Source: an uncultured Clostridia bacterium
GTDB taxonomy: Bacteria; Bacillota; Clostridia; Oscillospirales; Acutalibacteraceae
Reading direction: 5' to 3'
Length of the DNA: 35,763 nt
Assembly (NCBI GenBank): GCA_944376655.1
Contig: CALWDJ010000022.1
Span: forward strand, 1 to 35,763
Shown: positions 6,011-27,864 of the stretch, piece after piece
How the letters are laid out: each line of letters opens with the position of its first letter
How positions within the stretch are numbered: position 1 is the stretch's first letter
Program-made: the position numbers and the translations under genes
The notes under the pieces: generated by a model
The model's database searches: none
What the model was told of the DNA's origin: nothing
What the model saw: the letters and a program-made list of their open reading frames with translations, nothing else

Positions 6011-6050
6011 AAACTCAAACTCCGTTCTGCCAAACGCAGAATATAAAATC

Positions 6051-6062
6051 GCCTGATCAGGC
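6051..6062. promoter_or_regulatory. 12-bp perfect palindrome upstream of GH36 gene
   Basis: GCCTGATCAGGC is a perfect inverted repeat. It lies directly after the terminator T-tract (in minus-strand direction) and about 40 bp before the preferred GH36 start. It could be an operator half-pair or a structural element of the leader. No strong promoter is evident beside it. Confidence 0.3.
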
Positions 6063-6065
6063 AAA

Positions 6066-10341: not shown

Positions 10342-10406
10342 TTTGCGCACTCCTTCTGTTTTTTTATAAAATCAGTTTCAGATAAATGCTGTGTGGACGA
10401 AGTCGG

Positions 10407-12455: not shown

Positions 12456-13388
12456 TCATTCGCCCGCTATTCCTGTCATTTCAACGCTCTGCATAAATTT
12501 ACGCTGTAATATAAGATACAAAAGCAGCAGCGGCAAAATTGAAAGAAAAGTTCCGGCAAGCGTTACCGCCTCATTGAGGCGGTCGACCTCATTCAAAGCG
12601 TCAGCTGCGCCGTAAAGTGCTGTATACCGGTCAGTGAAAATTCCGAGCTGCATCGGAAGAGTTTTGATCTTTTCGCCGAAAAACATAGTGGACTGTGACG
12701 TCTCGTTCCAGTACCACACAAATGAAGCGACCGCAGATAGCACCGTAGCCGGTACAGCGGTCGGCAGCGCAATCTGGTAAAAAATCCGGAATCTTGAGCA
12801 TCCGTCTATCTCGGCCGCCTCATCGAGAGCTTTCGGATAGCTTGCGAAAAACTGATAATAAATCAGAATAAATATCGCGCTTTTCAGTCCCTGTCCGAGC
12901 ACAGCTGGAAGATATGACGGCAGAATCGTATTCAGTATCCCATATGAATGGTAAAGCACGTATCTCGGAATTTTCGTGACCTGATCCGGTATGAGGAAGG
13001 TGGAAATTATGAGAACCATCCAAAGCGTTTTTCCTTTTATGCGGAATCTTGCAAGTCCAAAGCCGATAAACGACGTCACCGTTACCTGGAGCACGGTAGG
13101 ACCTGCGCTCATCAGGACCGAATTAAGGAAGCTGGTGAAAAAATCAAGCGTTTCTATTGCCTTCCGGTAGTTTCCCCAGTAAATCTCTCTCGGCACCCAG
13201 TTCACCGAAACGTCCGCAAGCTCATCAGGTGAGAGTATGCTGTTCACCATCATATAGAGTATCGGATATATGAATACAAAGCCTATGCCAATAAGAAGCA
13301 TAAGTATAACAGCCAAAGGAAGAATACCCATTTTTTCATTTGTACCCAATATCCGTTTTCTGGCTCTTATAAATGCCGATTTATTCAT
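12456..13388 (-). CDS. Carbohydrate ABC transporter permease, MalG-like
   Basis: A 310-residue inner-membrane permease of the CUT1 sugar-import class. The frame is open further upstream, but ATG at 13388 has a good ribosome binding site (AGGGAGAAG) and makes an ATGA overlap with the preceding permease, so it is taken as the start. Six hydrophobic segments are visible, beginning with MGILPLAVILMLLIGIGFVF. The cytoplasmic EAA loop reads DEAAEIDGCSRFRIFYQIAL, the contact site for the ATPase. It pairs with the permease encoded directly upstream. No ATPase gene is in the window, so energy presumably comes from a shared MsmX/MsiK-type protein. Confidence 0.92.
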   Translation of the reverse strand: MNKSAFIRARKRILGTNEKMGILPLAVILMLLIGIGFVFIYPILYMMVNSILSPDELADVSVNWVPREIYWGNYRKAIETLDFFTSFLNSVLMSAGPTVLQVTVTSFIGFGLARFRIKGKTLWMVLIISTFLIPDQVTKIPRYVLYHSYGILNTILPSYLPAVLGQGLKSAIFILIYYQFFASYPKALDEAAEIDGCSRFRIFYQIALPTAVPATVLSAVASFVWYWNETSQSTMFFGEKIKTLPMQLGIFTDRYTALYGAADALNEVDRLNEAVTLAGTFLSILPLLLLYLILQRKFMQSVEMTGIAGE

Positions 13389-14257
13389 TTGCTCTTCTCC
13401 CTTGAAAATAGATAAAACAGCAGCCACACCGCACCGATAATCAACATTATCACAATAAAAACAATCCATGACATTGCAGATGAAAGACTGTATATTCTTC
13501 CTGCGTCATCAAAAATTCTGGTTGTTATTCGCTGATTTACGGCATTATTTGAGTAATTTGCCAGATCGATTATCGTGTAAAGCGTGCATATCACCGCGAG
13601 CGTTTTTGTATGCGGAAGCGTTATCTTCCAGAATTTTTCCCATGTCCCTGCACCGTCTATTGCGGCGGCCTCATAAAGGTTCGGATTTATTTTTTGAAGA
13701 CCGGCAAGGAAAATCAGTATTTGAACACCTGAAAACCACATTATCAAAATTATATTGTCAAGTATATAAACCGACGGTGATTTAAGAGTATCGGGAAGTG
13801 AATTAAGAAACTCATATATTTGAGGGATCGCATCCGAAAAGCTTACAGTGTATTTTGAAAGAAGCGTACTTATAACAGGTCCGCTCATTATTATTACGGG
13901 AAAAAAGTAAATTGCTCTGAATATCCCCCTTCCCCTGAATTTATTGTTCAGCAGAACCGAAACAATAAGTGAAAGAACAACAATGACCGGAGTAAAGCAG
14001 AATATAAAAAACAGCGTTTTCCCGAGATCTATGGTAAATCCGGGATCAACATTCAGCGCCTGGTCATAATAATATAGACCGCGCCATGATAGCTTTATAC
14101 TGCTGCCTGTTATTTTAACCGCTGAAAAGCTCATTGCTACCGAATAAAGAACCGGATAAAGGGTAACGGTTAAAAAGCCGATTATCCAGGGTGCGAGAAA
14201 GGCGTATCCGGCAAGCTGCTCACGTGCGGCAAAGGATAAATGTCTTTTATTTTTCAT
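13385..14257 (-). CDS. Sugar ABC transporter permease, MalF/UgpA-like
   Basis: A 290-residue inner-membrane permease beginning with a short basic cytoplasmic segment (MKNKRHLSFAAREQL) and six hydrophobic segments. The EAA loop is YEAAAIDGAGTWEKFWKITL. It overlaps the next permease gene by 4 bp (ATGA) and the preceding DUF5696-like gene by 11 bp, so all three are translationally coupled. With the next gene it forms the second permease pair of the locus. Its dedicated solute-binding protein is not adjacent; the candidates are the two solute-binding proteins further upstream, at 20361-23288 and 26380-27864. Confidence 0.92.
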   Translation of the reverse strand: MKNKRHLSFAAREQLAGYAFLAPWIIGFLTVTLYPVLYSVAMSFSAVKITGSSIKLSWRGLYYYDQALNVDPGFTIDLGKTLFFIFCFTPVIVVLSLIVSVLLNNKFRGRGIFRAIYFFPVIIMSGPVISTLLSKYTVSFSDAIPQIYEFLNSLPDTLKSPSVYILDNIILIMWFSGVQILIFLAGLQKINPNLYEAAAIDGAGTWEKFWKITLPHTKTLAVICTLYTIIDLANYSNNAVNQRITTRIFDDAGRIYSLSSAMSWIVFIVIMLIIGAVWLLFYLFSREKSK

Positions 14258-16529
14258 TCACCGCACCCCCTTCGGTAAGCAGATATCCTGACGCAGGTAT
14301 CGTTAATTCTCCCGTATTATAATCCTTACTCATATAATTGACATAAATACTGACACCATTATCGTAATCGGTTCTCACCACGCCCTCAGATATTACGGTA
14401 TGTGCAGTTATTCTGCTTCCTTCAGTCCTACCGAGCGCCGAACTGACCTCTTTGTACACTTCCTTCAATGTGGGATACCAATCGTCAAAGTTTATGGAAA
14501 AATAATCTACAAGCGGCGTATCCTGCAAAGAATAATTATCCGCGTGCGCAACTATGAATGACGGATAAGCGCCGAATTCTATCATTTTAAGAATATCGCT
14601 TGAGGAATATCCGCTCTGATTGGCAAACGGTGCGTAATAATCTACGGACCCTTTTAGAACTATCTGCAAAAAAGGAACTGTATCAGTTTCATAAAGATAC
14701 TGACTGTTGTTCATAGGCATATCGAAATAATCCGATGTATATTTCCAGCAGTACATATTTGGATTTGAAAGCGATATTTGCTGTTCTGAGGAGGCAAGTC
14801 TTTCGGTGATTCCTTCTGCGAAGGCGCTTCTGCTATATTCGGCATTAGTGGTATAATCCGAATAAAGCCTGTATCCTATCTGCCCGTAATAGAAATCAAA
14901 ATCCGCCAGCTTTTCAGAATACTTTTCAATCGTTTTAAACAGCTCTTTAACCTTAAGAACGTAATAATTCGCAAACATTGCCGACGGGTTAGATCTTGAA
15001 AAAACGGCAAACTGTTTTGAAATCTGGAGCGCCGCCTGTTTCTGCGTGCTGATTTGCCGCTCGTTGGCGGTCGTTATATTACTTGCAAGATAGAATTTTC
15101 CGCCGGAAGATTTCAGTTTATCCGCGAGGCCGGAAAAATCAGACTGTGTTCCGACACTCCCCTGAAATCTGACCGTGCCGTAATCCGAACCGTTTATTCC
15201 TTTTTTCTGCCATCCGTCGAAAACCATTGTGATATCAGCGATACCGTCGGAATTTATCCGTTCGACAAAATCATATGCCTGTGAAAGATCTGTAAGCGTA
15301 CGTGTATAATCAAACAAGGTACCGTCGGCAATTTCAGCACCGATAACATAAAGTCCGAGAGGTATATCGCCTGAATCTCCGCTGCTGCGGGGAAGCAGAC
15401 TGTCAGCCTCAAGCAGCCCACGGTAACGTACCGCCATTCCTGAGTACGACGCCTCCTCACCGCTCAGAAAATAAAGCGTAATACGTGGGTTGACGGTATT
15501 TTTTTCTGCCTGAGGGCGGTAAACACCTGTGTTTTTATCTACGGTATGCGTATACATCCGCCGATAGTCGAACACCGCTGTTACCCAGCTGTAATCGGTA
15601 GTTACTCCCGCAGGAGTAGCATTTATGCTTGCGTATTCCTCCCCATTCTCAATAACACTCATAACGGCATTGCAGCCCGCACCGTGAACAACTCCGAATA
15701 CCGGTGCGGTTATCTGTCCCGATTCCGCGAGATAATCATTGGGTCTCGTAGACACAAGATCGTTCACATGAGTGAGCTGGTCAATACCCATATCCTGACC
15801 GTATACCCGCTGTGAATAGCCGCTTATATATGAAGAACTTTCACTGAAGCGCATAAGCGCGCCGCAGCCGTCCGGTATAAATATGTAACCGTCGATTTCA
15901 TTCTCTTTGGCGGCTCCGAAAAACGGAAGGAAATAGACCGACTTCAGCATATAATCCTTTTTTTCTTTTATACTGCTGTCTTTAAGCTCCAATGTTATAC
16001 TGTCGTCATTCAGCCGCAGCGAAAACTCAAAAGAAATTCCCTGTTTCTGTAGATTCACCGAAAAATCAGCGCCTCTGCCGCTCCATTTTTCGGTTACTTT
16101 AATCCCGGAATCGGCAAGTGACATTTTGGTGGTGTTGTATTTTGCGTCATAATACTCAAAAGTACATATGGCGTTCGCAACAGCGCTCCATTTTTTGTTC
16201 AGCCCGTCCACCTTGTCTTCGGGAATTGAGCCCCAAATATATCCGGAGAGCTTATCCCTCACACGAAGACCGCGTACCTCCTTACGGTACCAAAGCTCAA
16301 GACGGCCGTTTTCCGCCATTTTCTCATATCCGTCGGTGCCGAGGATATTTTCCGCCACTTTTCCGCTTTCCGGTCTGGCATGACGGTTTGAGCGTATTTC
16401 AAGCACCGATGTATCAGGCGTTATAAAACTCTGCTGCGCTCTGCGCAACGCGGTAGATGGCGCAATCAGCATAACGGCTAACACCGTAACACAAGCGGTC
16501 AGCCGCAAAATACGTTTATTCAACCGCAC
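14247..16529 (-). CDS. Exported DUF5696-like protein of glycan-transport locus
   Basis: A 760-residue protein with an N-terminal signal or anchor segment (RLTACVTVLAVMLIAPSTA). It resembles, from memory, DUF5696 proteins, which Firmicutes encode beside sugar ABC permeases and YIP1-family proteins; no function is established. After a beta-rich first half (to about 385), residues 390-700 look like a TIM barrel of glycosidase type: IADITMVFDGWQKKGI (Asp438), FYLASNITT, FDFYYGQIGYRLYSDY, and MPMNNSQYLYETDTVPFLQI. This suggests a glycan-binding protein or an unrecognised glycoside hydrolase. GTG at 16529 is supported by GGGGAGG nine bases upstream and overlaps the previous gene by 14 bp. It is coupled to the NHL/YIP1 gene before it and the permease pair after it. 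Confidence 0.75.
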   Translation of the reverse strand: MRLNKRILRLTACVTVLAVMLIAPSTALRRAQQSFITPDTSVLEIRSNRHARPESGKVAENILGTDGYEKMAENGRLELWYRKEVRGLRVRDKLSGYIWGSIPEDKVDGLNKKWSAVANAICTFEYYDAKYNTTKMSLADSGIKVTEKWSGRGADFSVNLQKQGISFEFSLRLNDDSITLELKDSSIKEKKDYMLKSVYFLPFFGAAKENEIDGYIFIPDGCGALMRFSESSSYISGYSQRVYGQDMGIDQLTHVNDLVSTRPNDYLAESGQITAPVFGVVHGAGCNAVMSVIENGEEYASINATPAGVTTDYSWVTAVFDYRRMYTHTVDKNTGVYRPQAEKNTVNPRITLYFLSGEEASYSGMAVRYRGLLEADSLLPRSSGDSGDIPLGLYVIGAEIADGTLFDYTRTLTDLSQAYDFVERINSDGIADITMVFDGWQKKGINGSDYGTVRFQGSVGTQSDFSGLADKLKSSGGKFYLASNITTANERQISTQKQAALQISKQFAVFSRSNPSAMFANYYVLKVKELFKTIEKYSEKLADFDFYYGQIGYRLYSDYTTNAEYSRSAFAEGITERLASSEQQISLSNPNMYCWKYTSDYFDMPMNNSQYLYETDTVPFLQIVLKGSVDYYAPFANQSGYSSSDILKMIEFGAYPSFIVAHADNYSLQDTPLVDYFSINFDDWYPTLKEVYKEVSSALGRTEGSRITAHTVISEGVVRTDYDNGVSIYVNYMSKDYNTGELTIPASGYLLTEGGAVNEK

Positions 16530-18552
16530 GGTAGCTCGCCTCCCCTATAACTTTGCCTGCAAAAATTATTATCTGTTTCCAGAAAATATATATGAGCGCT
16601 GCCACAACAACCGTCACTATCATAAAGAAAACTGTCAACAGCATATTTTTTACAGTTGATTTGAAGGAATAGCCGTGTGTTTCCGATACACTTATAAAAA
16701 CGGACACAAAAAGCCATATAAGTGTAACAGTCCACGGGAACGCTATAAGAAACGCTTCATTCAACGTAAATACATAACTTAAAGCGACTATAAACGGAGT
16801 AATACATATATAAGGTGACAGCGAATAAGCGGTAGATATATAGACCTTTTTGATTGTACCCATACCGTCGCTTATTGAGCTGACCATATAGTTACCCAGT
16901 ACAAAAAGACCTATAACACCGAAATATATCAGCGGAAGTATGAACGGCGACATATTTTCAAACCTGCTGAAGCTGAAAATAAAGCTACGAAGCATAGTAT
17001 CTGCGCTGAATACCGCAAAACCGACGCAGTAAACAGCGGTAGCCGAAAGAACGGATCCGCATTCCCCCCTGTTGAGATAATACAGGGTATCTATCGGGTG
17101 ACGGAGCATTGAAAAAATGCATGACGCTCCGGAGCCGGGTATTTCTGATGAGGTTTTACGGTGCTTTTTCGTAATTCTTCTCGCCACAGTTGCCGCAACA
17201 ATTATCAAAATTAACGCAGCCGCAAGAAAAATCAGATTGTCGTTAAGCCATTTTCCGCGCAGCTCGCTGTATGCCGCAGAATAGTTTTCCCTGTCACCCG
17301 CTATTTTAAATTCTTCCAGTGCTTCTGAATAACGCTGCTGGTGAAAATAGGTTTTCCCGAGTCCCAGATGAGCTATACGCGACATTCCGTTTAGCTTCAG
17401 CACCTGATTCCAGATTTCCTCACTGTCATCATAATTTCCGGTCTCAAGACAATAAATTGCCTTTTGTGAAGCTATTGCAAAATCGGTCGGAACAAATGTC
17501 TGCACCAGAGCGCGCTCACGATCAAGAATATAAATAAATCCTTTGTCGTCAACATCTATTGCAGCGGCATCGGTTATCAGACCGTTTTTATCATCTGACA
17601 TCGCGCGTCCTCCGAAAGAAAAAATCAGATTTCCGGAGCTGTCATATTCATATATCAGACCGGTCTGCGTAAGACAATAGCAGTTTGAGTATATGCCCGA
17701 TGTTACATCCACAAAATTCCATTCATCATTTACCGATTCGTCTGGCGACATAATGTCTTCTCCGCCGAGATTATGCAGCTGGACAAGATTATGCGTTTTC
17801 GCTCCCGAAGAAGCGCCTGCAGAATATTTGTCAGCCGCCTGAGTCACACTGTAAATAAGATCCTGTGATGTAATATCTATATTGAATATCGGCTGAGCTA
17901 TTCTGGAGGTCATCTTTGCCTTCTGAGCATCGGAATATATAAGCTCCTGCACCATTTCGAGCAAGGTCAGTGAGCGCTCGTTCGCGGCAAAATATCCCTG
18001 AAACGTACCGTCAAAGTCAAACTGCATAAGACCCTCATGCGCACCGTCACCGACAACATAAATATTTCCCTGAGATGATACAGCAACGTTTTTCGGAGCA
18101 TATACACTGTTATTTCCGAACAGATAACTGTCAGGTCTTGATATCGTCTGCTCAAGCTTTCCGTCTTCCGAAAAGATATACACCGCCGGAGCTTTCATAT
18201 CAGCGACATAAAGCTTACCCGAATCATCAGCGAAGATCCCGCACGGATATGTAAAAATGTCTTCCCCTATCACGGAATATGAGCCGTCAGACATTGAATA
18301 GGCAATTACACGACTGTTTCCGGTATCTGCCACATACATTGTGTCATTTTTTATAAAAATATCCTGCGGCTGATTAAGACCGAGATCATTAAGATAAATT
18401 CCTCCGGGAAGATATGCGTCCTGCGTGCGTATCCATTCTCCGTCCACTGATATGGTATAATTATACGAAGTGCCGCTGCGCGCAAGCGCGCCGAGAGGAA
18501 ACAGGAACGCAAAAACGATCACTGCCGCCAGAGTAAAAAAAACTTTTCTCAT
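16516..18552 (-). CDS. NHL beta-propeller / TPR / YIP1-domain membrane protein
   Basis: A 678-residue protein with a signal peptide (KVFFTLAAVIVFAFLFPLGA). Residues 55-355 hold repeated NHL-like strands (PQDIFIKNDTMYVADTGNSR, YPCGIFADDSGKLYVAD, AIDVDDKGFIYILDRE), forming an extracellular beta-propeller. Residues 362-430 are TPR-like helices (NYDDSEEIWNQVLKL, RYSEALEEFKIAG). A membrane segment follows at about 439-457, then a YIP1-type multi-spanning domain (about 485-670) opening LRHPIDTLYYLNRGE. The topology is thus a large outside sensor or binding head on a membrane base. It is encoded between two permease pairs and overlaps the DUF5696-like gene, so it likely belongs to the glycan uptake apparatus. 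Its molecular role is not known. ATG at 18552 follows AAGGATGG. Confidence 0.8.
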   Translation of the reverse strand: MRKVFFTLAAVIVFAFLFPLGALARSGTSYNYTISVDGEWIRTQDAYLPGGIYLNDLGLNQPQDIFIKNDTMYVADTGNSRVIAYSMSDGSYSVIGEDIFTYPCGIFADDSGKLYVADMKAPAVYIFSEDGKLEQTISRPDSYLFGNNSVYAPKNVAVSSQGNIYVVGDGAHEGLMQFDFDGTFQGYFAANERSLTLLEMVQELIYSDAQKAKMTSRIAQPIFNIDITSQDLIYSVTQAADKYSAGASSGAKTHNLVQLHNLGGEDIMSPDESVNDEWNFVDVTSGIYSNCYCLTQTGLIYEYDSSGNLIFSFGGRAMSDDKNGLITDAAAIDVDDKGFIYILDRERALVQTFVPTDFAIASQKAIYCLETGNYDDSEEIWNQVLKLNGMSRIAHLGLGKTYFHQQRYSEALEEFKIAGDRENYSAAYSELRGKWLNDNLIFLAAALILIIVAATVARRITKKHRKTSSEIPGSGASCIFSMLRHPIDTLYYLNRGECGSVLSATAVYCVGFAVFSADTMLRSFIFSFSRFENMSPFILPLIYFGVIGLFVLGNYMVSSISDGMGTIKKVYISTAYSLSPYICITPFIVALSYVFTLNEAFLIAFPWTVTLIWLFVSVFISVSETHGYSFKSTVKNMLLTVFFMIVTVVVAALIYIFWKQIIIFAGKVIGEASYRAVE

Positions 18553-18562
18553 TTTTCCATCC

Positions 18563-19453
18563 TTATTTGATACCGGAATGAGCCATCGTATTCATCACGC
18601 GTGACTGAAGTATTATAAAAAGTATAAGATTGGGCATAAACATAATAAGAGTCGCCGCTGCGCTTATGCCCTGACCTGCTATTGAACCGCTCGTAACGCT
18701 TGTAAGGGTTGACATGTAAAAAGCAAAAGTTTTAAGTGATTCATTGTTTATATAAAGACTTGAGGTTTCAATATTATTCCAGACCGACTGAAATGACAGA
18801 ATGGTGACAGTAGCAAGTGTCGGCTTTATAAGCGGAAAAACAATCTTTCTCAGTATTTTAAAATCGGATGCGCCGTCTATTACCGCCGCTTCTATAAGCG
18901 CGTCAGGCAGCTGGTCGGCAAACTGTTTCACAAGAAAAACGCCGGTAGGTATAACCACCAAAGGCAGAATATTCGCCCATATCGTATCAAAAATCCCGCC
19001 GTAGACGATAATGAAATAACGCGGTATGCTAACCGCCACCGAAACAAACATCAGTGCGGTTTTATTAATGTCAAACAACAGTCCCCTTCCGCGGAATTTC
19101 TTTTTAGAAAGCGCAAAACCCGCCGCAGTGGAAATAAAAACAGTCGTAAATACAACCGCCGCCGATACTATTACACTGTTGAACAGGTATCGCACTGCCG
19201 GAACAGTAGTTCCGGAAGATACCGAAAGCAAAAGCCGGAAATTGTCAAGCGTAGGATTTTTGACATAAAAACGCGGAGGATATGCAAAAAGCTCATCGGT
19301 TGGCTTGAAAGCGTTTACTATTATAAAAAGGATGGGCAGTGCCATAAGTATGCCCACAGGTATCAGTACGGCATAAAATTTCAGCTGACTGCGGTCAAAA
19401 TGCTTGGGATTCATACCGCTTTGACGAATTCGTGTTCTGTTTGTTTTTTTCAA
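18563..19453 (-). CDS. Carbohydrate ABC transporter permease, MalG-like
   Basis: A 296-residue CUT1-type inner-membrane permease. The start is TTG at 19453, supported by AAGGGGG seven bases upstream; the next ATG has no ribosome binding site. Hydrophobic segments begin at FYAVLIPVGILMALPILFII. The EAA loop reads IEAAVIDGASDFKILRKIVF. It follows the partner permease by 12 bp and precedes the NHL/YIP1 gene by 10 bp. It forms the first permease pair with the gene at 19466-20371 and probably serves the 975-residue solute-binding protein encoded before it. Confidence 0.92.
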   Translation of the reverse strand: MKKTNRTRIRQSGMNPKHFDRSQLKFYAVLIPVGILMALPILFIIVNAFKPTDELFAYPPRFYVKNPTLDNFRLLLSVSSGTTVPAVRYLFNSVIVSAAVVFTTVFISTAAGFALSKKKFRGRGLLFDINKTALMFVSVAVSIPRYFIIVYGGIFDTIWANILPLVVIPTGVFLVKQFADQLPDALIEAAVIDGASDFKILRKIVFPLIKPTLATVTILSFQSVWNNIETSSLYINNESLKTFAFYMSTLTSVTSGSIAGQGISAAATLIMFMPNLILFIILQSRVMNTMAHSGIK

Positions 19454-19465
19454 AACGCAACCCCC

Positions 19466-20371
19466 TTATTCTTCCCTGCTCGACAGCAGATGTTCCGTTC
19501 CTTTGGAAAGAAGATATATACCAACAAGCAGAATCACGGAAACCGCCGCCGCATATCCCATTTCATAACGTAAATATCCATAGTCTTCAATATGGGTGAC
19601 TATAAGCTGACCGGCATAGTTCGGAGTCGGATTTGAGCCGGAAAGAGTCACCCCTATGTTTCCGGTCTGGAAGGTATTGACTATCGACATAATGGCTCCG
19701 AAAAGCATTTGCGGCTTAGCGGCGGGAATCGTTATATAGATGATTTCCTGAAATCTGTTTCTTATTCCGTCAATATATCCCGCCTCGTAAAGCTCCTCGT
19801 TCACATTAAGTATTCCGGAGAGCATTGCCAGAAAGCCGACTCCCATACTGCTCCACAGCGAAACGATTATCATTATCACGAGTAACGAGCCTTCAGACTG
19901 AAGCCATGCCACCGGCTCATCGATAACATTGAATTTAAGAAGGATATAATTGAGATATCCAGATTTGTCGCCGTTGAAAATAACACTCCAGACAGTCTGA
20001 ATAAGCACACCGCCGGTCATTGACGGCGAATATATTATTATAGCAAGCACAGTGCGCGGTCCCTTTGTTATCTGAGAGAGACACCACGCAAGCAAAAATC
20101 CGAGCACGTATCCCCCGAAACCTACAAAAACCGCGAAAGTAACTGTATTAGGCAAAACCTTCTGCATAAAAATGCTGTCGTTTGTGAAAAGTCTGAGATA
20201 ATTGTCAAGCCCGAGCCAAGCCGGCATCTCTACCGAGTTGAAATCCGTAAATGAAAGCACCATTGCGGCAATAACCGGAATTATAATAAATATAACAAAC
20301 AATATCGCATATGGTGCCAGCATTATTGCCGCGGAACTGCGGTTCAGGCGGTCTGATATTTTATTTTTCAA
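19466..20371 (-). CDS. Sugar ABC transporter permease, MalF/UgpA-like
   Basis: A CUT1-type inner-membrane permease of about 301 residues. The frame is open to a TTG at 20392, but TTG at 20371 is preceded by AGGGTG at good spacing and overlaps the upstream stop, so it is preferred; GTG at 20380 is also possible. The protein starts MKNKISDRLNRSSAAIMLAP and has six hydrophobic segments. The EAA loop is degenerate (YEAGYIDGIRNRFQEIIYI), with Gly in place of the second Ala. It overlaps the large solute-binding-protein gene and is coupled to it. Confidence 0.9.
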   Translation of the reverse strand: MKNKISDRLNRSSAAIMLAPYAILFVIFIIIPVIAAMVLSFTDFNSVEMPAWLGLDNYLRLFTNDSIFMQKVLPNTVTFAVFVGFGGYVLGFLLAWCLSQITKGPRTVLAIIIYSPSMTGGVLIQTVWSVIFNGDKSGYLNYILLKFNVIDEPVAWLQSEGSLLVIMIIVSLWSSMGVGFLAMLSGILNVNEELYEAGYIDGIRNRFQEIIYITIPAAKPQMLFGAIMSIVNTFQTGNIGVTLSGSNPTPNYAGQLIVTHIEDYGYLRYEMGYAAAVSVILLVGIYLLSKGTEHLLSSREE

Positions 20372-23288
20372 CCTGTTCACCCTGTTGTTCAAGCTGATTG
20401 GTCAGGAATTCATACGCGTTTGTCGCATAATCCTTTACAATCACGCCGTTTTCGTCTATATAACCAAACTCGTTCAGCTTACGCTCAATTTCACGGTTTA
20501 TCAGCACGACCGATTCATCAATCGATTCAATAAGATCCTCAGAACCAATAACAGTGTTATTCCAAATATTGCTAATTTCCCTTTCAACCATATAATTGGC
20601 GGGATGCCCTATATTTTCCATCTGGGACTGCAATTGTTCGAGTATCACCTTCTTGTCTTCCTCGTCATAAGGGAGCTGTTCGAAGGTTTTGATGTTTGCG
20701 GTGTTCCATCTGTATTCGGAACCGTATGTCGTTTGGAGAGTAAGCGCATACTCAGTTTGAGTTTCCTCGCTCAGCCACCATTTAAGAAATTTCCATGCCT
20801 GTTGAGGCTGCTTAGTGTTATCGAAAATCATACAGGCATTAACATCAGCCATCTGGGTCCTTATAACCGTGCCGTCTTCCGCCACTGTTCCTGGTGTCAG
20901 CGCTATTCCCCATTGCTGTGCCAGCTCAGGCGCGGCTATAAGCAGCTGTATGTACATACTGAAATTTGAGATGCCTATCGGTATTTCTCCGTACCTGAAG
21001 CTGTTATAAAAGCTTGCGACTACGGTATCAAGGGAATATATTTCATAAAGCTCCGTCATATCCCAAAAGCCGTTCGCCGACATCATAGTATCAATCGCGG
21101 TTGAAACACCGTCATTGCTGTAAACGGTCCCTCCGTTCTGGTATATAAACGGTGTAGTCATATTATAGCTTTTATATCCCCCGCTACCCGAAAGCGGAAT
21201 AAAAAAGTTCATTGAATTCCGCAGCAATGTGGGCATCATTCGCTTAACGTCATTCCATGTGTCAGGAACGTCAAGTGAAAGCGACTCCAGTATATCTTTT
21301 CGGTAAAAAAGCACCTGAAAATCATAAGTCTCACAGGCGCCGTACACGCCGTCGCCGCACACCATCGGAATAAGAGCCTCAAGATTGTACTGTTCATTGT
21401 AAAACGGAAGAAAATCCTCATATTCAAGAAGATTTTTCGCCGCATTGCGTATTGCGAGGTTAAAAGGCGTGGTAGAAGCTACACCCAGCACGACATCCGG
21501 ATTCGTACCCGTAGCATTTGAAAGTATCAGCTTCTGTTCGCTCGGCATTACAGAAAGCTGTATATTCGTGCCGTTTACTCTGTTATACTTTGAATCCACA
21601 AGACGCTGAAGCACCTGCACGTACTGTATTGAGCGGTTTATCCAAACCTTAAGTTCATCGTCCGACTGCGCTGCCGAAACCGAATAGTCACTGCTGCCGT
21701 CCGCGATGAAAGAATAGACAAAGGATTTGACCGTATCCGCCGCGCGCGTGAAAAAGCTGTTTGAAGCCGATGGAAGAAGACGGTTGTCCCCATAAATATA
21801 TATTCTGTCAAGTCCGAGCGCCGAAGACGTAAGACATTCCATAACAGTTCCGAGATATTTGTTCGCGGAGCTGTCTCCCGAATTTATAAGTTCAGTCCGA
21901 TTCGGAATATGCGACGGCTCTTCTGTGAGACTGCGAAGTGTTTCCGAAGCGTACAAAAGATTCGCGGCATATACCGGCTCGCAGCCGCCGATTTCATAAA
22001 GTTTATCATATATATCGTCTATACGGTCGGCAAACCCTTTAATTTTGCTTACGGCGTCCGGCATATACGCGTCCATATCCCATGTGCGGTTATCGTCATC
22101 ACTGCCGGCAGTAAGCTTTTTTAGGCTTATACCAAGCTCGCTTATCTCGTCCATAAGCTGACCGATTTCATTGTAAACAGAAGAATATTCCCCGTTTACT
22201 GCACGCATCGAAACAGTATGCCTGCCGGCGCCAAGATAAATATAAAACTCATCATCGTTATCAGAGAGCGTGCAGTTTGCGTATTCCGAATTTCCGCTGT
22301 ATTCAAACGCGGCTTCGGAAAGCTGCGCAAACGGAACCTGCCCGTCTATTTCAATTTCCCTGAAAACCCGTTTGTTTACGTTTGCATCCTGTCTGTACCT
22401 GAAGCCGAGTTTATAATATCCGGCGTTCTTTACGTCAAATTCCCATATGATTTTTTGACCTGCGGTTTTCCATGAGCCCTGTGAAATATGGTTTATCAGG
22501 TTTTTATAAGGGCTGTGTGGTTCAAGCGCGGGATTTGATTCGCTGTCTCCTCTTATAAATGAATCGGATTTCAGCGCGTATTTCTCAGCTTCAATAATTA
22601 TAAAATCAGTTCCCGCGGTTCCGTTTTTTATGTAATCGCTGTAATCCGGCAGTACCGCAGGTCTTACCAAAAATATTCCGGAAACTATAATACCCAGCGA
22701 AACCGGCGAAACGGAAATGCTTCCGCCTTCAAATAATATTCTCGTTTTATCGGCATCCCTGTAATCATATATATAATCGCATATTATTCCGTCGGCATTT
22801 ACCTGCTCTGGATTGTATTCCGAACCGTTTCGGTCGGACGAATAATCATCGGTAGCGTCCGCCCACAGAAAAGGAAGATAGCCTATATACTCTCCGCCGT
22901 CCGCAGATATATTCAGTCTGCATTCGCCCACCGTATCGCCGGAAGGTCTGTATTTCAGCATCACACAGAAATCACTGTATCCGTCACAGTTAAGGAGAAG
23001 TGTATCTCCCTTATCCAGAAAAAGTGAGCCGTCCTCTGTATACTCGGGATTGTCCGCACCCTCGAACACTGTTTGAGAAAGCGGTATTTCATACAAAACC
23101 TCATACGCTTTATCCGAAATCCAGTTTTGCATGGAAATATCAGTATACCTGACGCCCTCTTCCGCCTCAGCGGCGCTGCTCCCTTTTGCGGCAGCTATGG
23201 CTTCGGGCAGACATAGACCGACGCCTGCAACCAAAGCCGCCGCGATAACCAGCGCTGTAACCTTGATTACTTTTTTAAATGCTTTCAT
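20361..23288 (-). CDS. Giant solute-binding protein with carbohydrate-binding-like N-terminal extension
   Basis: A 975-residue exported protein, twice the usual length of a sugar-binding protein. After a signal peptide (TALVIAAALVAGVGLCLPEA), residues 45-215 form one beta-rich region. Residues 228-390 form a second that resembles a CBM6/35-type or related beta-sandwich (FIIIEAEKYALKS, NAGYYKLGFRYRQ, YLGAGRHTVSMRAVNGE). From about 600 it reads as a typical family 1 solute-binding domain (NPDVVLGVAS, DFQVLFYRKDILESL, VPDTWNDV, IPIGISNFSMYIQLL, QPQQAWKFLKWWLS). It probably captures large oligosaccharides at the membrane for the following permease pair. No lipobox Cys is placed as in the 494-residue paralogue. 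It overlaps the GH31 gene by 14 bp and the permease gene by 11 bp or more. Confidence 0.87.
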   Translation of the reverse strand: MKAFKKVIKVTALVIAAALVAGVGLCLPEAIAAAKGSSAAEAEEGVRYTDISMQNWISDKAYEVLYEIPLSQTVFEGADNPEYTEDGSLFLDKGDTLLLNCDGYSDFCVMLKYRPSGDTVGECRLNISADGGEYIGYLPFLWADATDDYSSDRNGSEYNPEQVNADGIICDYIYDYRDADKTRILFEGGSISVSPVSLGIIVSGIFLVRPAVLPDYSDYIKNGTAGTDFIIIEAEKYALKSDSFIRGDSESNPALEPHSPYKNLINHISQGSWKTAGQKIIWEFDVKNAGYYKLGFRYRQDANVNKRVFREIEIDGQVPFAQLSEAAFEYSGNSEYANCTLSDNDDEFYIYLGAGRHTVSMRAVNGEYSSVYNEIGQLMDEISELGISLKKLTAGSDDDNRTWDMDAYMPDAVSKIKGFADRIDDIYDKLYEIGGCEPVYAANLLYASETLRSLTEEPSHIPNRTELINSGDSSANKYLGTVMECLTSSALGLDRIYIYGDNRLLPSASNSFFTRAADTVKSFVYSFIADGSSDYSVSAAQSDDELKVWINRSIQYVQVLQRLVDSKYNRVNGTNIQLSVMPSEQKLILSNATGTNPDVVLGVASTTPFNLAIRNAAKNLLEYEDFLPFYNEQYNLEALIPMVCGDGVYGACETYDFQVLFYRKDILESLSLDVPDTWNDVKRMMPTLLRNSMNFFIPLSGSGGYKSYNMTTPFIYQNGGTVYSNDGVSTAIDTMMSANGFWDMTELYEIYSLDTVVASFYNSFRYGEIPIGISNFSMYIQLLIAAPELAQQWGIALTPGTVAEDGTVIRTQMADVNACMIFDNTKQPQQAWKFLKWWLSEETQTEYALTLQTTYGSEYRWNTANIKTFEQLPYDEEDKKVILEQLQSQMENIGHPANYMVEREISNIWNNTVIGSEDLIESIDESVVLINREIERKLNEFGYIDENGVIVKDYATNAYEFLTNQLEQQGEQVEK

Positions 23289-26200
23289 TTTTCCGCGCTT
23301 TACCTCCGCGTCTTTTTATACAACGTACAGCCGTTATGCAGATGAGTACCAATGAAGCAGCGGCCACCGCCGAGCATACGGCAAAAAGCGGTATATTAGA
23401 TGCCGTAAGCAGCGCCGCTGCCGATGAAACAAAATATCCGGCATTTGTAGACATAAGCGATGTACCGGTTTTATTTTCTTCATATATCGACACATTGTAA
23501 AGTGACGCCGGCACGTTCCCTCCGCGTTCAAATTCACTGAATCTTACAAACTTGGCCCTCACAGGCTCAAAATTCAGCAAATCTGTTCCGCCGTCGCCTT
23601 CGGTCTGCCCGAGTGCAGTGCTCCAGTTTTTTCCGTCTAACGAAACCTCGATTTTATATGCTGAAGCGTATCCGTGTCCCCATTTAAGGGCTACGGAATC
23701 AATTATATATTCTTTATCCAGCTCCGCCATCAGATAGGTCCCTTTCAGAGGAGAAGCAGACCACTGATATTCGGAATCGTTATTTTTAAGAGAGGCGAGA
23801 AGCTTTGTCTCCTTATTATTTTTGGAATCGGTAAAAATTGCCTTTTCCGCCACATTTAGAGAAGCTCCCGAAGAGCTTTCTCCGCTGATTTCAATATTGT
23901 TCCACCTGCCCGACGGAAGAATTATCACTGTTCTGCCGGTACCGTCAATATAATATCCAGGCTTTTTCCCGGCACTTTTCAGCTTTGGCAGATATATTCC
24001 GTCCGCTTTTACCTTTTCAGCTATGATTCCATATGCCATTATCGCCTGAGTTTCGCTGCCGGACGCACATTTTACAGTGAAGCTTTTTTCGGAAGTTTTT
24101 AAGTTTTTATAAACGACAGATTTTTCTCCCGTATCGTCCCATGCCTCAAAAGAAGTATCAGAATCGGGCGGCGTGACAATAAGTGCAGATACACTGTCGT
24201 TGTCTGAAAGCGAATCCGAAAGTCTGTATGTGTCAGCCACAGTAACCGGCATTATCGCTCCGGCTTTCAAATAAACCGGTATTGAACTTTGCGGAGCTTC
24301 GGCAGTTAATGTTACTCCGCCTTCAGTACACTCGCCGTCCCAAAGGCTGTACCAGTTTCCCGAAGGAAGTGTGACCTCTCTTGACGAAACCGAGTTTTCC
24401 GTCACGGGACAAACAAGCAGATTATCGCAAAACATATATTCGTCTTCTATTGCAAAAAGGTTTTCCTGCTCCGGAAATGCCATAATCAGCGGTTGAGCCA
24501 TCGGCGTACCGTAGCGGTTTGAATTTACAGCGGCGCTGTAAATGGTATCTATAAGATTTTCCCTGAGCCAGTACATTTTTTTGAAAACTTCCTCGGCCTC
24601 AGGACCGAATTCCCACGGATTGCATGTTGCGACGCCGTGTTCGCGCATCAGAGGCTCGAAAACCGAAAACTCAAGCCACCTCATATAAGTGTCCGCTGAA
24701 TCGGTTGCATTAAAGCCCCCGATGTCTCCTCCCCAGACAGAAAATCCCGAAGAGCTGAGCGAAAGACCTGCGTTTAACTGCTGCTTCAGACCGCTCATAT
24801 CTCCTCTGTTGTCACCTGTAAAGTTTGCTCCGAACGCCTGACTTCCGGCAGAGCCGCTGCGCTGGAAAAGAATAAAATCCTTCTCTCCGTCAAGCAGACT
24901 TGTCATTGCCTCGTTGACCGTTTTCAGATAATAATAGGAAGAGAAATTGTGCATTTCCGCACCGCTCATTCCGTTGTAATAAAGAGAATCCTCTGTTATC
25001 TTCTCCCCCATGTCTACCATCATACCGCGCGCGCCCCACTCGACGTACTGTTTAAGGTATCTTTCCATAAACACCTTTGCGTTCGGGTGAGTATGATCGA
25101 GAAATGCGGTATCGTTGCTCTTGACATTGTAAAGCCAATTATTTATCGACGAACGCACCACCGGAGCTTCATCATCGGTAATCTTAAGTTTGTCAAGTAT
25201 TTCACTGTAATCAAAATATCCGGAGGTCCACATCAGCATACGTATATTATTCTTTTTCAGTATACTGTAAGCTACCGAATCAAACATAATCGGTGACTCG
25301 GTATAAATTGCCGCCAAGGAATCTATTCCGAGCTTTTTGTATCCGTTTATAAAATTCTGCAGCACAGAGATATATTCTCCCTTGCCGTCATCCGACGCTC
25401 TCCATACCACGCCCGCGGCACCCGCCCAATAGCTGAATGCCCACTTTGGCGGCAGAAAGCTCCTGCCTGTAAGCGCCGTATAGCTCTGAACGTTCTCTGT
25501 CGGCGTTCCGGTCCAATAATAAAAATCAAATTTGGGTCCGTATGATTCCAATGTATACCTGTTTCTGTCAGTCACGCCGAAATCGGCATCAACGCAGTAT
25601 GCAGAATTCAGAAAAAATGAATAACCCCTACTGCTATGCATAAACGGCACATTGATATACGATTCTACTTTGGTTTCAAGGTTTTTGTCCGACGCATGAT
25701 ATGCGGCGTCAAGATTCCAAAGCTGAAGCTTTGTACCCACCTGATTGACAGAATTGAATCTTTCTCCGGTGCCGTACATTTTCTCCCCGTCAGAAAGCGG
25801 CGCTGATATCCTTATATGTTCATTTATTCCGTTGCGGTAACCTATTTCTATGTCGGAGCTGCTCAATGTCAGAAGTTCCTCGCTGTCCCTTAATAGCACA
25901 AGCTCCCAACCGTTTTCAAGTTCTTTAACAATCATACGCGTTCCGTCAGGCGCGGAAATATTAAGATATCCGGCAGGATCATCTGAATAAGAAAGCTCAT
26001 TAAGGCTTTCCGGCTCGAAAACTCCGTCTGTATCGGTATAAAAACGCATACCGCCTTCAGAAGGAGCCGATATACGGAAAGCCATCGGTTCACCGTTCAC
26101 CACAGCCGTAAAAGTGAAAACTTCTTTTCCCTTTTCTGTGCCGGTTATCGCGGACGGACTGTACCATTCCTGCTCACGGTAAACCGGCATCGGCCGGACA

Positions 26201-26292
26201 TTTGAACTGTCGGCGAATACGCTTATCGACACCGTACACACAAGCACCGCGCAGAGAAGAACCGCCGATATATATTTTTGCAGCTTCCTCAT
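23275..26292 (-). CDS. Secreted, membrane-anchored GH31-family glycosidase
   Basis: A 1005-residue retaining alpha-glycosidase of family 31. A signal peptide (ISAVLLCAVLVCTVSISVFA) is followed by the beta-domain and barrel. The likely nucleophile is Asp427 in GMMVDMGEKI and the acid/base Asp494 in FTGDNRGD, followed by GGDIGGF. The DMGE nucleophile region with the downstream MHN, and the RSG-x2-GSQ segment, resemble the branch of GH31 that contains sulfoquinovosidase, not the WxDMNE alpha-glucosidases. The Arg/Trp pair used by sulfoquinovosidase is not apparent, so specificity is open. Residues about 855-950 form an F5/8 type C (CBM32-like) domain (MAELDKEYIIDSVALKWG). A C-terminal membrane span and basic tail (about 970-1005) anchor it. 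GGAGGAG precedes the ATG. Confidence 0.9.
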   Translation of the reverse strand: MRKLQKYISAVLLCAVLVCTVSISVFADSSNVRPMPVYREQEWYSPSAITGTEKGKEVFTFTAVVNGEPMAFRISAPSEGGMRFYTDTDGVFEPESLNELSYSDDPAGYLNISAPDGTRMIVKELENGWELVLLRDSEELLTLSSSDIEIGYRNGINEHIRISAPLSDGEKMYGTGERFNSVNQVGTKLQLWNLDAAYHASDKNLETKVESYINVPFMHSSRGYSFFLNSAYCVDADFGVTDRNRYTLESYGPKFDFYYWTGTPTENVQSYTALTGRSFLPPKWAFSYWAGAAGVVWRASDDGKGEYISVLQNFINGYKKLGIDSLAAIYTESPIMFDSVAYSILKKNNIRMLMWTSGYFDYSEILDKLKITDDEAPVVRSSINNWLYNVKSNDTAFLDHTHPNAKVFMERYLKQYVEWGARGMMVDMGEKITEDSLYYNGMSGAEMHNFSSYYYLKTVNEAMTSLLDGEKDFILFQRSGSAGSQAFGANFTGDNRGDMSGLKQQLNAGLSLSSSGFSVWGGDIGGFNATDSADTYMRWLEFSVFEPLMREHGVATCNPWEFGPEAEEVFKKMYWLRENLIDTIYSAAVNSNRYGTPMAQPLIMAFPEQENLFAIEDEYMFCDNLLVCPVTENSVSSREVTLPSGNWYSLWDGECTEGGVTLTAEAPQSSIPVYLKAGAIMPVTVADTYRLSDSLSDNDSVSALIVTPPDSDTSFEAWDDTGEKSVVYKNLKTSEKSFTVKCASGSETQAIMAYGIIAEKVKADGIYLPKLKSAGKKPGYYIDGTGRTVIILPSGRWNNIEISGESSSGASLNVAEKAIFTDSKNNKETKLLASLKNNDSEYQWSASPLKGTYLMAELDKEYIIDSVALKWGHGYASAYKIEVSLDGKNWSTALGQTEGDGGTDLLNFEPVRAKFVRFSEFERGGNVPASLYNVSIYEENKTGTSLMSTNAGYFVSSAAALLTASNIPLFAVCSAVAAASLVLICITAVRCIKRRGGKARKNESI

Positions 26293-26379: not shown

Positions 26380-27864
26380 TTATTTTCCATGAGATGCATT
26401 GAATTCAGACTGGACCTGCCTTACCTCATTTTCAAAATTGCTCCATGCTTCTTTCATAAGCTTGTTTACAGTAGACTGAAGCGTGGTTATCTGTGAAGTT
26501 GGGTCGGTTCCGCCCGTAGAAAGAGTGTTTATAACACTTTTAAGATAGCTGTAATGAATTTCATTGTATTCCGGCACGTACTTGAACGGGTCACCGCGAA
26601 ATGACTTTGAAATATTTTCCATAAAGTAAATATCTACTTCAGTCGCGGCGTCAAGCTCCGAAAAACGCTTCAGAGCCTCCTCGTTCGTTGTCGCGGGGTA
26701 ATAAATTCTGTCGTTCAGTATATAGACCCCTTCATTTTGGGAATCATACATAGCGAGTCTTGTAAAGTTGCCCTCCGGACTGTAAGTGAGGAAACGGAGA
26801 AGCTGGAACGCCGCTTCCGGATTTTCTGTGGTGCTGCACATAAACGAATGATCCACATGAACGCAGTTTCTGCCCGCTTCGTCCTGCGGGGTAGTCCACA
26901 TTTCCCAATTGTAGCTGATGGTGTTTTCGAGAGAAGCATATTTCCATGTTCCGGAAGACTCCATAAGTACACGGCCGGTATTAAATGCAGTGTTTTCGCT
27001 GTCACTTCCGAACTTCTTTGCGTAGTCGGTTTCACCACTTGTATCCTTACTGCTTTTAAGTGTTTCAGCAACTACGCCGGGCAATGAATTAAGCTGCTGC
27101 ATAAGTTTGACCGCTTCTAACAGTGAACCGGTCAGATTGAACTGTCTTGTCTCATTGTTGTAGCCCCATTTTTCACCGACGCCCGCAAATATAGCCGAGC
27201 CGTAATCCGTCCAGAATGTGAGCGATTCGCAACCCGAATAGGTGTTATTCGTTGCCGCTTTCAGCAGTTCGACATAATCATCGATTGTCCAGTCTATCTC
27301 CGGATGATCAAGATTCAACTCATCGAGTATATCGTTATTAAGCACCATAGTCTGGAATGTGAGGGAATTCGGCAAGGCGTAAAGCTCACCGCAATAAGTG
27401 TAGGTATCTATTATGCCCGGATCAATCTCTTCAAAATAAGGATCATCCTTTACAAACTCGGTGATCGGATATACCCATCCCTGTCTTACATATATGGGGA
27501 GCTTTCCGGCTTCATCAAAGACAACGTCGGGCAATTCGTTTGTCGCCGCCTTTGAAGCAAGATATTCGTCCGCGACATCACTGCCTGAAAAATAATCGAT
27601 TATAAGATTGACATTCGGGTAAAGTTCCTGAAATTTATCAAGCACCGCTTCGTAATCCGTAGGTCTTGAAAGATTTATCGCCACTTTGACATCACCGGAT
27701 ACCGTATAATCCGCATACTGATCCTCGCCAGTGCCGGTCACTATGAATTCACCTTTGGATGAAGAATCTTTGCCGTCAGATGTGTTTTCTTCTTCTCCGC
27801 ACCCGGAGAGAAACACAGCAAATACCATTATTAACGACAGAACCAATGAAAAATATTTTTTCAT
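26380..27864 (-). CDS. Sugar ABC transporter solute-binding lipoprotein
   Basis: A 494-residue family 1 extracellular solute-binding protein. The N-terminus MKKYFSLVLSLIMVFAVFLS is followed by the lipobox LSGC with Cys22 as lipid attachment site, then an acidic, Ser-rich linker. Typical segments include YPNVNLIIDYFSGSDVADEY, AATNELPDVVFDEAGKLP, FKDPYF-like and YGSAIFAGVGEKWG regions, and NPEAAFQLLRFLTYS near the C-terminus. It tethers at the outer face of the membrane and delivers an oligosaccharide to one of the two permease pairs. It begins 5 bp after the giant surface-protein gene, whose end carries its ribosome binding site (GAAGGAAG). An 87-bp spacer to the GH31 gene holds no clear signal. 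Confidence 0.93.
   Translation of the reverse strand: MKKYFSLVLSLIMVFAVFLSGCGEEENTSDGKDSSSKGEFIVTGTGEDQYADYTVSGDVKVAINLSRPTDYEAVLDKFQELYPNVNLIIDYFSGSDVADEYLASKAATNELPDVVFDEAGKLPIYVRQGWVYPITEFVKDDPYFEEIDPGIIDTYTYCGELYALPNSLTFQTMVLNNDILDELNLDHPEIDWTIDDYVELLKAATNNTYSGCESLTFWTDYGSAIFAGVGEKWGYNNETRQFNLTGSLLEAVKLMQQLNSLPGVVAETLKSSKDTSGETDYAKKFGSDSENTAFNTGRVLMESSGTWKYASLENTISYNWEMWTTPQDEAGRNCVHVDHSFMCSTTENPEAAFQLLRFLTYSPEGNFTRLAMYDSQNEGVYILNDRIYYPATTNEEALKRFSELDAATEVDIYFMENISKSFRGDPFKYVPEYNEIHYSYLKSVINTLSTGGTDPTSQITTLQSTVNKLMKEAWSNFENEVRQVQSEFNASHGK

Follow-up and report, generated by a model that had tools for sequence, protein, structure and literature searches.

A 35,763-nucleotide stretch of DNA from an uncultured Clostridia bacterium (contig CALWDJ010000022.1, positions 1 to 35,763; hereafter the window) carries on its minus strand a cassette of seven genes, in which a long solute-binding protein is followed by two sugar permease pairs of the ATP-binding cassette (ABC) type, with an NHL-TPR-YIP1 membrane protein and a DUF5696 protein between the pairs. 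On balance, we favour reading this cassette as a co-inherited system of Bacillota for capture of glycans at the cell surface and their import, in which a glycosidase-derived protein would act as the receptor. The gene set and its order recur across the phylum, and DUF5696 is predicted to adopt the fold of known glycosidases while often having lost their catalytic residues. In the order in which they are read, the genes are:

20361..23288, minus strand: SBPL, long exported solute-binding protein of 975 amino acids (aa), Pfam SBP_bac_1, E 2e-17
19466..20371, minus strand: F1, MalF-type permease, TTG start at 20371 (alternative start at 20392), BPD_transp_1, E 2.1e-8
18563..19453, minus strand: G1, MalG-type permease, Pfam BPD_transp_1, E 4.1e-11
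16516..18552, minus strand: NHL propeller-TPR-transmembrane-YIP1-like protein of 678 aa, Pfam NHL and TPR, YIP1 via homologues
14247..16529, minus strand: DUF5696, exported and N-terminally anchored, 760 aa, Pfam E 1.7e-164
13385..14257, minus strand: F2, MalF-type permease, BPD_transp_1 at 23.8 bits, under the cut-off of 26.4
12456..13388, minus strand: G2, MalG-type permease, ATG at 13388 preferred (open reading frame, ORF, to 13469), Pfam BPD_transp_1, E 1.4e-14

ORFs and Pfam matches bear out the parts named in the initial annotation of this region, i.e. two permease pairs, an NHL-TPR-YIP1 protein (its YIP1 part via homologues) and DUF5696. The span it had outlined, 16516..20371, holds genuine genes and is too short, as the unit extends to DUF5696-F2-G2 (12456-16529) and to SBPL (20361-23288). 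Overlaps were said to couple most of the genes, and with the preferred starts they are found at four of the six junctions: SBPL/F1 by 11 nucleotides (nt), NHL/DUF5696 by 14 nt, DUF5696/F2 by 11 nt and F2/G2 by 4 nt (ATGA). The remaining junctions, F1-G1 and G1-NHL, are gapped by 12 and 10 nt.

Recurrence of the cassette

The genome to which the window belongs (G000; 1.99 Mb in 55 contigs) contains four NHL-type and four DUF5696 genes, every one paired, and all four pairs lie in the identical seven-gene order, SBPL-F1-G1-NHL/TPR(-)YIP1-DUF5696-F2-G2. The other three copies share 25-27% identity with the window in NHL, 24-26% in DUF5696 and 27-31% in SBPL. Pairwise identities sort F1, G1, F2 and G2 into four separate orthologous series across the copies: F1 proteins share 39-51% with one another and F2 proteins 31-34%, while F1 compared with F2 gives 22-35%, the upper values only across short stretches. 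F1 of the window is 39-42% identical to F1 of the other three copies and its G1 41-44% to their G1; its F2 displays 31-32% identity to their F2 and 26-28% to their F1. Recurrence of the order in three further copies, despite only 24-27% identity of the NHL and DUF5696 proteins to those of the window, together with the order seen in other genomes (below), rules out a chance arrangement.

A search of 147 genomes from the order found DUF5696 in 75, NHL in 80 (a figure that includes weak matches to the propeller alone) and SBPL, taken as an independent probe, in 72. Of the 73 genomes with SBPL, strong NHL or strong DUF5696, 70 have all three; in the other three (G065, G014, G126), the matches lie at contig edges. 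Pairing was counted over 101 NHL and 101 DUF5696 places, excluding second pieces of one gene and DUF5696 matches below 29 bits. At 86 of the 101 NHL places, DUF5696 lies next downstream on the same strand. The other 15 comprise 11 weak partial matches and four strong ones (L103, L225, L226, L240), which are situated at a contig end or no more than 350 nt from it. Eleven of the 15 DUF5696 places without NHL were examined: two lie at contig ends (L223, L224), five are stand-alone and four are weaker relatives of 606-660 aa (L219-L222).

At the level of the phylum, DUF5696 exceeds the cut-off in 35 of 348 genomes, in two of them barely (G446, G468), and copy numbers at this level are lower bounds, as at most three candidates were scored per genome. 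Named hosts in the genome collection and NCBI annotation include Paenibacillus species, Thermoanaerobacterium butyriciformans, Acetivibrio alkalicellulosi, Gracilibacillus, Cohnella, Lachnospiraceae and Butyrivibrio. NCBI annotation of a Butyrivibrio fibrisolvens plasmid lists a binding protein, two permeases, an NHL repeat protein, a YIP1 family protein, a DUF5696 protein and two permeases; a Paenibacillus cellulosilyticus plasmid carries the same row with NHL and YIP1 in one gene and ugpC adjoining.

Gene order was annotated in 144 loci (our own four, 60 regions of other genomes and the best 80 of at least 565 confirmed in the genome collection), using profiles built from the four G000 copies. 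These loci were picked for DUF5696 or NHL, and the co-occurrence across the 147 genomes is the fairer test. All cassette parts are present in 130 loci, 129 of them in canonical order, a count that takes in three loci without detected YIP1 and a few with a split or doubled part; in L095 every part is present and the order is rotated. Homologues stand beside permeases in nearly all annotated loci, which upholds the conserved linkage with two permease pairs put forward in the initial annotation. In five of the other 14 loci, only NHL-YIP1, DUF5696, F2 and G2 are present; one of these five, L100, is located at a contig end. In three more, SBPL-F1 lies downstream of G2; two start at YIP1, three are cut at contig ends and one lacks a detected G1.

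Fourteen further regions included five reduced loci, NHL-YIP1-DUF5696-F2-G2 without adjacent SBPL-F1-G1 (L234, L236, L237, L238, L241), two full cassettes (L232, L242), three loci cut by contig ends (L235, L239, L240) and one with the order DUF5696-F2-G2-NHL-YIP1 (L233); L229-L231 are inter-module stretches without NHL or DUF5696. SBPL is found somewhere in 12 of 12 genomes from families with reduced forms, the reduced module having been seen in some of these genomes only. Existence of such a module means that the two halves of the cassette are separable.

This pattern can be set against an alternative without any joint machine: the two sugar ABC importers would be ordinary and work independently, the two surface proteins would be unrelated, and all would share an operon only because they serve the same glycan. 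In the usual view, an ABC sugar importer consists of one binding protein, one permease pair and an ATPase, and several transporters and enzymes in one operon are common for sugars. F1-G1 and F2-G2 each look complete, and the separable halves agree with such an arrangement. However, independent importers would not be expected to keep a constant order in 129 of 144 loci while the flanking enzymes change, nor to co-occur with the other parts in 70 of 73 genomes, and we regard this alternative as unlikely.

SBPL genes are also numerous in their own right, with nine matches above 450 bits in G227 and six in G186, and among the matches listed they exceed the NHL and DUF5696 copies; half-cassettes may be common in these two genomes.

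Permeases, binding proteins and the NHL-TPR-YIP1 protein

Both permease pairs are of the MalF/MalG type found in CUT1 importers, with BPD_transp_1 above the cut-off on G2, G1 and F1 of the window and below it on F2 alone. Over the 130 loci, a strict pattern for the EAA loop is matched in 129 F1, 129 G1, 68 F2 and 127 G2 proteins, and a looser pattern, which can match by chance, in 130, 128, 130 and 123, respectively; both patterns were searched over whole proteins rather than aligned columns. Four of the F2 proteins missed by the strict pattern were inspected, three of which read EVAKIEG and one EAARVDS. Export was considered as the direction of transport and rejected on the EAA loops and the SBP_bac_1 binding proteins, which point to import.

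SBPL and a second, ordinary-length binding protein encoded upstream in the same run (SBP2) are both family-1 solute-binding proteins, again as in CUT1 importers. In SBPL, the SBP_bac_1 domain is C-terminal (residues 560-844) and matches sugar-binding proteins, best Lin1841 (E 9.9e-28). Its N-terminal ~500 aa contain stretches resembling carbohydrate-binding beta-sandwiches; CBM_35 is matched weakly (E 0.057) and in one SBPL homologue only. Close relatives of SBP2 are found in L039, L114 and L115.

A Pfam scan of 16 window proteins found no MalK/MsmX-type ATPase. The whole genome gives one OB_MalK match compared with 27 BPD_transp_1 matches, 16 of which fall in the four cassettes, making one shared motor likely. 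By these counts, the importers are likely to share one MalK/MsmX-type ATPase encoded elsewhere; MsmX is a precedent for an ATPase common to several importers.

The 678-aa protein between the pairs combines NHL and TPR domains, both found by Pfam, with a C-terminal membrane part on which PF04893 (YIP1) gives no match in the window even at E 10. The same model scores above its cut-off in all six homologues scanned, i.e. five of five stand-alone homologues of the C-terminal part, among them the contig C24 copy of the same genome (46.5 bits, cut-off 28.6), and one further fused homologue (62.5 bits). Judged by these homologues, the C-terminal part of the window protein is probably YIP1-like and too divergent for the Pfam model. 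Hydropathy and the positive-inside rule, on which the topology is based, predict a signal or transmembrane helix, an exoplasmic NHL-TPR head, a transmembrane segment at 439-457, six Lys/Arg within 15 residues and then five transmembrane segments. A cytoplasmic NHL domain is rejected on the same features, in line with the initial annotation, which had placed this domain outside the membrane. The AlphaFold model of the protein has a predicted local distance difference test score (pLDDT) of 88.5, and its propeller matches the NHL domain of TRIM71 (E 1.6e-15).

NHL-TPR and YIP1 are fused in 37 of the 130 loci and separate in 90, with YIP1 undetected in three, and the state changes 10 times on a quick F1+G1 tree of 73 loci. 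Repeated fusion or fission of two parts is a usual sign of partners, and here it argues that NHL-TPR and YIP1 work together. The split NHL-TPR/YIP1 copy on contig C24 was considered as a broken gene, which is ruled out by the split form in 90 loci. At one locus (L094; G010:C14 36006-38063), the NHL-YIP1 match spans eight stops and two YIP1 matches are found, perhaps indicating a frameshifted or decayed copy.

One possibility is a hetero-multimeric uptake machine of a kind new to Bacillota, a functional counterpart of SusCD, in which NHL-TPR-YIP1 would bridge the two permease heterodimers and a GH101/GH129-derived receptor would pass long or branched glycans to the binding proteins; we put this forward tentatively and with considerable doubt. 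Another is that NHL-TPR-YIP1 and DUF5696 form a glycan sensor, signalling via the permeases or to a regulator rather than aiding uptake. Many recognition proteins have propeller or TPR heads, and regulators do occur nearby (LacI in the window; a histidine kinase and a response regulator in Butyrivibrio). Yet the type of regulator varies by locus (LacI, AraC), and no signalling domain is found on the cassette proteins scanned with Pfam, making a sensor very improbable in our judgement.

DUF5696 and its relation to glycosidases

DUF5696 was initially said to lack an assigned role. The open-licence literature searched contains no mention of the family, of which an account may exist elsewhere; in that respect, the statement stands, and it is now amended by a predicted fold. 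The AlphaFold model of the window protein (pLDDT 86.6, predicted template-modelling score 0.88) is matched by Foldseek to DagB (5opq; E 2.8e-33, template-modelling scores 0.63/0.72) and to NagBb and glycoside hydrolase family (GH) 101 enzymes (5wzr, E 4.8e-25; 5a55, E 3e-19). A sequence profile likewise finds DagB (5opq) at E 2.9e-12 and NagBb at E 6.8e-7. Going by the model, the fold of DUF5696 is that of the GH129/GH101 glycosidases.

The relation becomes closer with five stand-alone relatives of 565-583 aa, beside which no other cassette gene was found:

L215, 2761-4458: stand-alone DUF5696-like protein
L216, 3010-4740 and 8429-10180: two stand-alone DUF5696-like proteins
L217, 4053-5777: stand-alone DUF5696-like protein
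L218, 4214-5938: stand-alone DUF5696-like protein

As a profile, they match NagBb over the whole barrel (E 7.4e-31), and their invariant D363 and E406 align with NagBb D435 and E478. The latter we take to be the second catalytic residue, a search for a supporting paper having found none. D435 is described as catalytic, and as conserved in DagB as D486, in the DagB report (PMC5698469). The sequences suggest that the stand-alone relatives are perhaps an unassigned enzyme family of the GH129/GH101 clan.

Cassette members present a different picture. When 146 of them were aligned with the five stand-alone relatives (many rows are close Paenibacillus relatives and not independent), the catalytic Asp and Glu of NagBb were both kept in 10, for which reason DUF5696 is not filed as a GH129/GH101 hydrolase. 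The nucleophile column contains D 96, T 15, S 7, Y 6, N 6, G 5, E 5 and Q 2, and the acid/base column S 41, E 22, D 17, T 16, N 12 and others. In the window protein, Q550 and S588 replace the pair, and a profile-profile alignment agrees in placing Q550 opposite D363 of the stand-alone relatives. The four G000 copies display Q/S, G/R, T/E and K/Q at the nucleophile and acid/base positions; none has the nucleophile-position Asp common to NagBb and DagB, so the known glycosidase mechanism appears unlikely for these copies. Two further invariant residues of the stand-alone relatives, D258 and D410, are kept in 8 and 7 of the 146, and H257, H294 and D415 do not rank among the eight most frequent residues at their positions. 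Of the 146, 131 retain W252 and 142 retain E472 (E651 in the window); the equivalent of window D558 is kept in 43 of 48.

We prefer to read DUF5696 as a putative glycan receptor derived from a glycosidase. The main rival to such a binding role is hydrolysis by other residues. DUF5696 would then be an active glycosidase at the cell surface, belong to a new family of the GH101/GH129 clan and trim the glycan ahead of its import. It would rely on different carboxylates (e.g. D558, E651) or, in some members, combine the old nucleophile with a new partner residue, as in DagB. Besides the fold, the highly conserved equivalents of E651 and D558, the Asp retained by 96 members and the 10 members with both old acids are in keeping with activity. 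DagB itself works without the second catalytic residue of NagBb, according to its report (PMC5698469), indicating that loss of the acid/base Glu alone does not make a dead enzyme. On the other hand, an active family has to accommodate the absence of the nucleophile-position Asp from all four G000 copies and the loss of D258, D410 and the His257, His294 and Asp415 equivalents from most members. We hold hydrolysis to be a serious but less likely alternative.

Several searches added little to this comparison. A Pfam Glyco_hydro_129 scan of 299 genomes gave no match, not even in the 14 controls among them, so the scan is uninformative on absence. A profile built from only the second half of the DUF5696 barrel gave chance-level matches to PDB sequences and no others; against plasmids, a DagB fragment had no match and a NagBb fragment a single weak one, in Embleya.

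Proposed pathway, related systems and neighbouring genes

If the receptor reading is adopted, surface enzymes would release glycan pieces, to be caught at the membrane by SBPL and by DUF5696 as a membrane-tethered receptor. Anchored in the membrane through YIP1, the NHL-TPR head would gather receptor and binding protein at the permeases, with SBPL feeding one pair and the ordinary binding protein the other. F1-G1 and F2-G2 would then import the oligosaccharides, driven by the shared ATPase, and intracellular enzymes such as GH36 would complete the breakdown. The accessory uptake system suggested initially is supported in part, namely by the co-occurrence, the importer-type EAA loops and the position of four cassettes beside different glycosidases; it had left out SBPL, which also belongs to it.

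Some observations weigh against this reading. The reduced module without adjacent SBPL-F1-G1 and the order of L233 reveal that the layout is not absolute, and permease linkage in the 144 loci is conditional, the loci having been chosen by DUF5696 or NHL. Distance matrices of the seven cassette proteins do correlate (r 0.80-0.90, 73 loci), but joint inheritance accounts for such a correlation no less than contact does. The count behind the shared ATPase is that of the OB_MalK model alone. The activity of DagB counts here too, as do the 96 members with the nucleophile-position Asp and the 22 with the acid/base Glu. Finally, the P. cellulosilyticus copy (L228) lies amid LLM-class flavin monooxygenases and an NADPH-dependent oxidoreductase instead of sugar enzymes, a warning that some substrates may be other than plain glycans.

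Each part of the cassette is of a known kind. Their fixed combination and the inclusion of a partner descended from glycosidases are undescribed as far as the literature searched extends, and no account of the cassette was found in the open-licence literature on YIP1 with ABC transporters, polysaccharide gene clusters or NHL repeats. With CUT1 importers (MalFGK/MsmX-type), the cassette shares MalF/MalG-type pairs with EAA loops, SBP_bac_1 proteins and probably an unlinked ATPase. It differs in having two pairs per conserved unit, an SBPL with an extra N-terminal half, and NHL-TPR-YIP1 and DUF5696 between the pairs. SusCD of Bacteroidota serves outer-membrane glycan uptake through a surface capture part and an import channel, in several substrate-specific copies. 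The role proposed here resembles it in coupling surface capture to import and in the several copies; in contrast, the envelope is another one, the cassette uses ABC permeases and homology is not expected.

NagBb (GH129), DagB (ZGAL_3152) and the GH101 enzymes resemble DUF5696 in their beta-sandwich and TIM-barrel fold and in detectable sequence kinship. Unlike NagBb, DUF5696 rarely keeps the catalytic pair, is exported and anchored, and is tied to permeases; NagBb is described as having no signal peptide in one report (PMC7232152), and DagB was placed outside GH129 by its own authors (PMC5698469). In Bacillus, the Yip1-family membrane protein YknW modulates assembly of the ABC transporter YknWXYZ (PMC4887032). 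That pairing of a Yip1-family membrane protein with an ABC transporter parallels the cassette. The two differ in that YknWXYZ works in export and includes a membrane fusion protein, whereas the cassette has permeases of the importer type and an NHL-TPR head that is either fused to YIP1 or encoded next to it.

Were the proposal true, gut, soil and thermophilic Bacillota would own a dedicated glycan-capture system that has so far gone unnamed. DUF5696 gains a predicted fold, an origin and a role that can be put to the test, and the cassette offers a genome marker for glycan-use loci.

The genes around the cassette in the window are:

33646..34671, minus strand: LacI-type regulator, first in the run, Pfam LacI and Peripla_BP_3
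27869-33649, minus strand: exported protein of 1926 aa, hydrophobic at its C-terminus, with Big_4 domains and five stretches of the 3keto-disac_hyd type
26380..27864, minus strand: SBP2, solute-binding lipoprotein of ordinary length, encoded further upstream within the run, Pfam SBP_bac_8, E 1.6e-21
23275..26292, minus strand: exported GH31 glycosidase with an F5/8C module, local cargo gene, Glyco_hydro_31, E 6.4e-44
10407-11306 and 11473-12372, minus strand: tandem xylose-isomerase-like (AP_endonuc_2) genes, from the ORF list and sequence comparison
6121-10350, minus strand: protein of 1409 aa with dockerin type I, carbohydrate esterase family 2 (CE2) N-terminal and SGNH esterase domains
3827..6064, minus strand: GH36 alpha-galactosidase-type enzyme, local cargo gene, Melibiase, E 6.5e-122, no signal peptide seen by eye

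The minus-strand order is LacI, the 1926-aa protein, SBP2, GH31, the cassette (23288 to 12456), the isomerase-like pair, the dockerin/esterase protein, GH36 and an SGNH esterase, and the GH31 gene overlaps that of SBPL by 14 nt. From its domains, the 1926-aa surface protein is a probable glycan binder. Neighbours differ for each G000 copy, with GH31, GH36 and esterases in the window, a fucosidase-like (GH29-like) protein and GH95 on C25, GH78 and GH36 on C2, and GH36 and GH35 on C24. The flanking proteins of other loci (84 of 213 ORFs) include GH3, GH31, GH26, GH66, apiosidase, CBM35, LacI and AraC families, with two to six members each. As the cassette is constant and its neighbours vary, it looks like a general device for which local enzymes would set the glycan.

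The two isomerase-like proteins, each of 299 aa, are near-identical, with differences mainly in the N-terminal third, as after a recent duplication or gene conversion. Transposase- or recombinase-like ORFs, named by eye, lie at both contig ends (506-2263 and 34954-35763), and the locus may be bounded by mobile elements.

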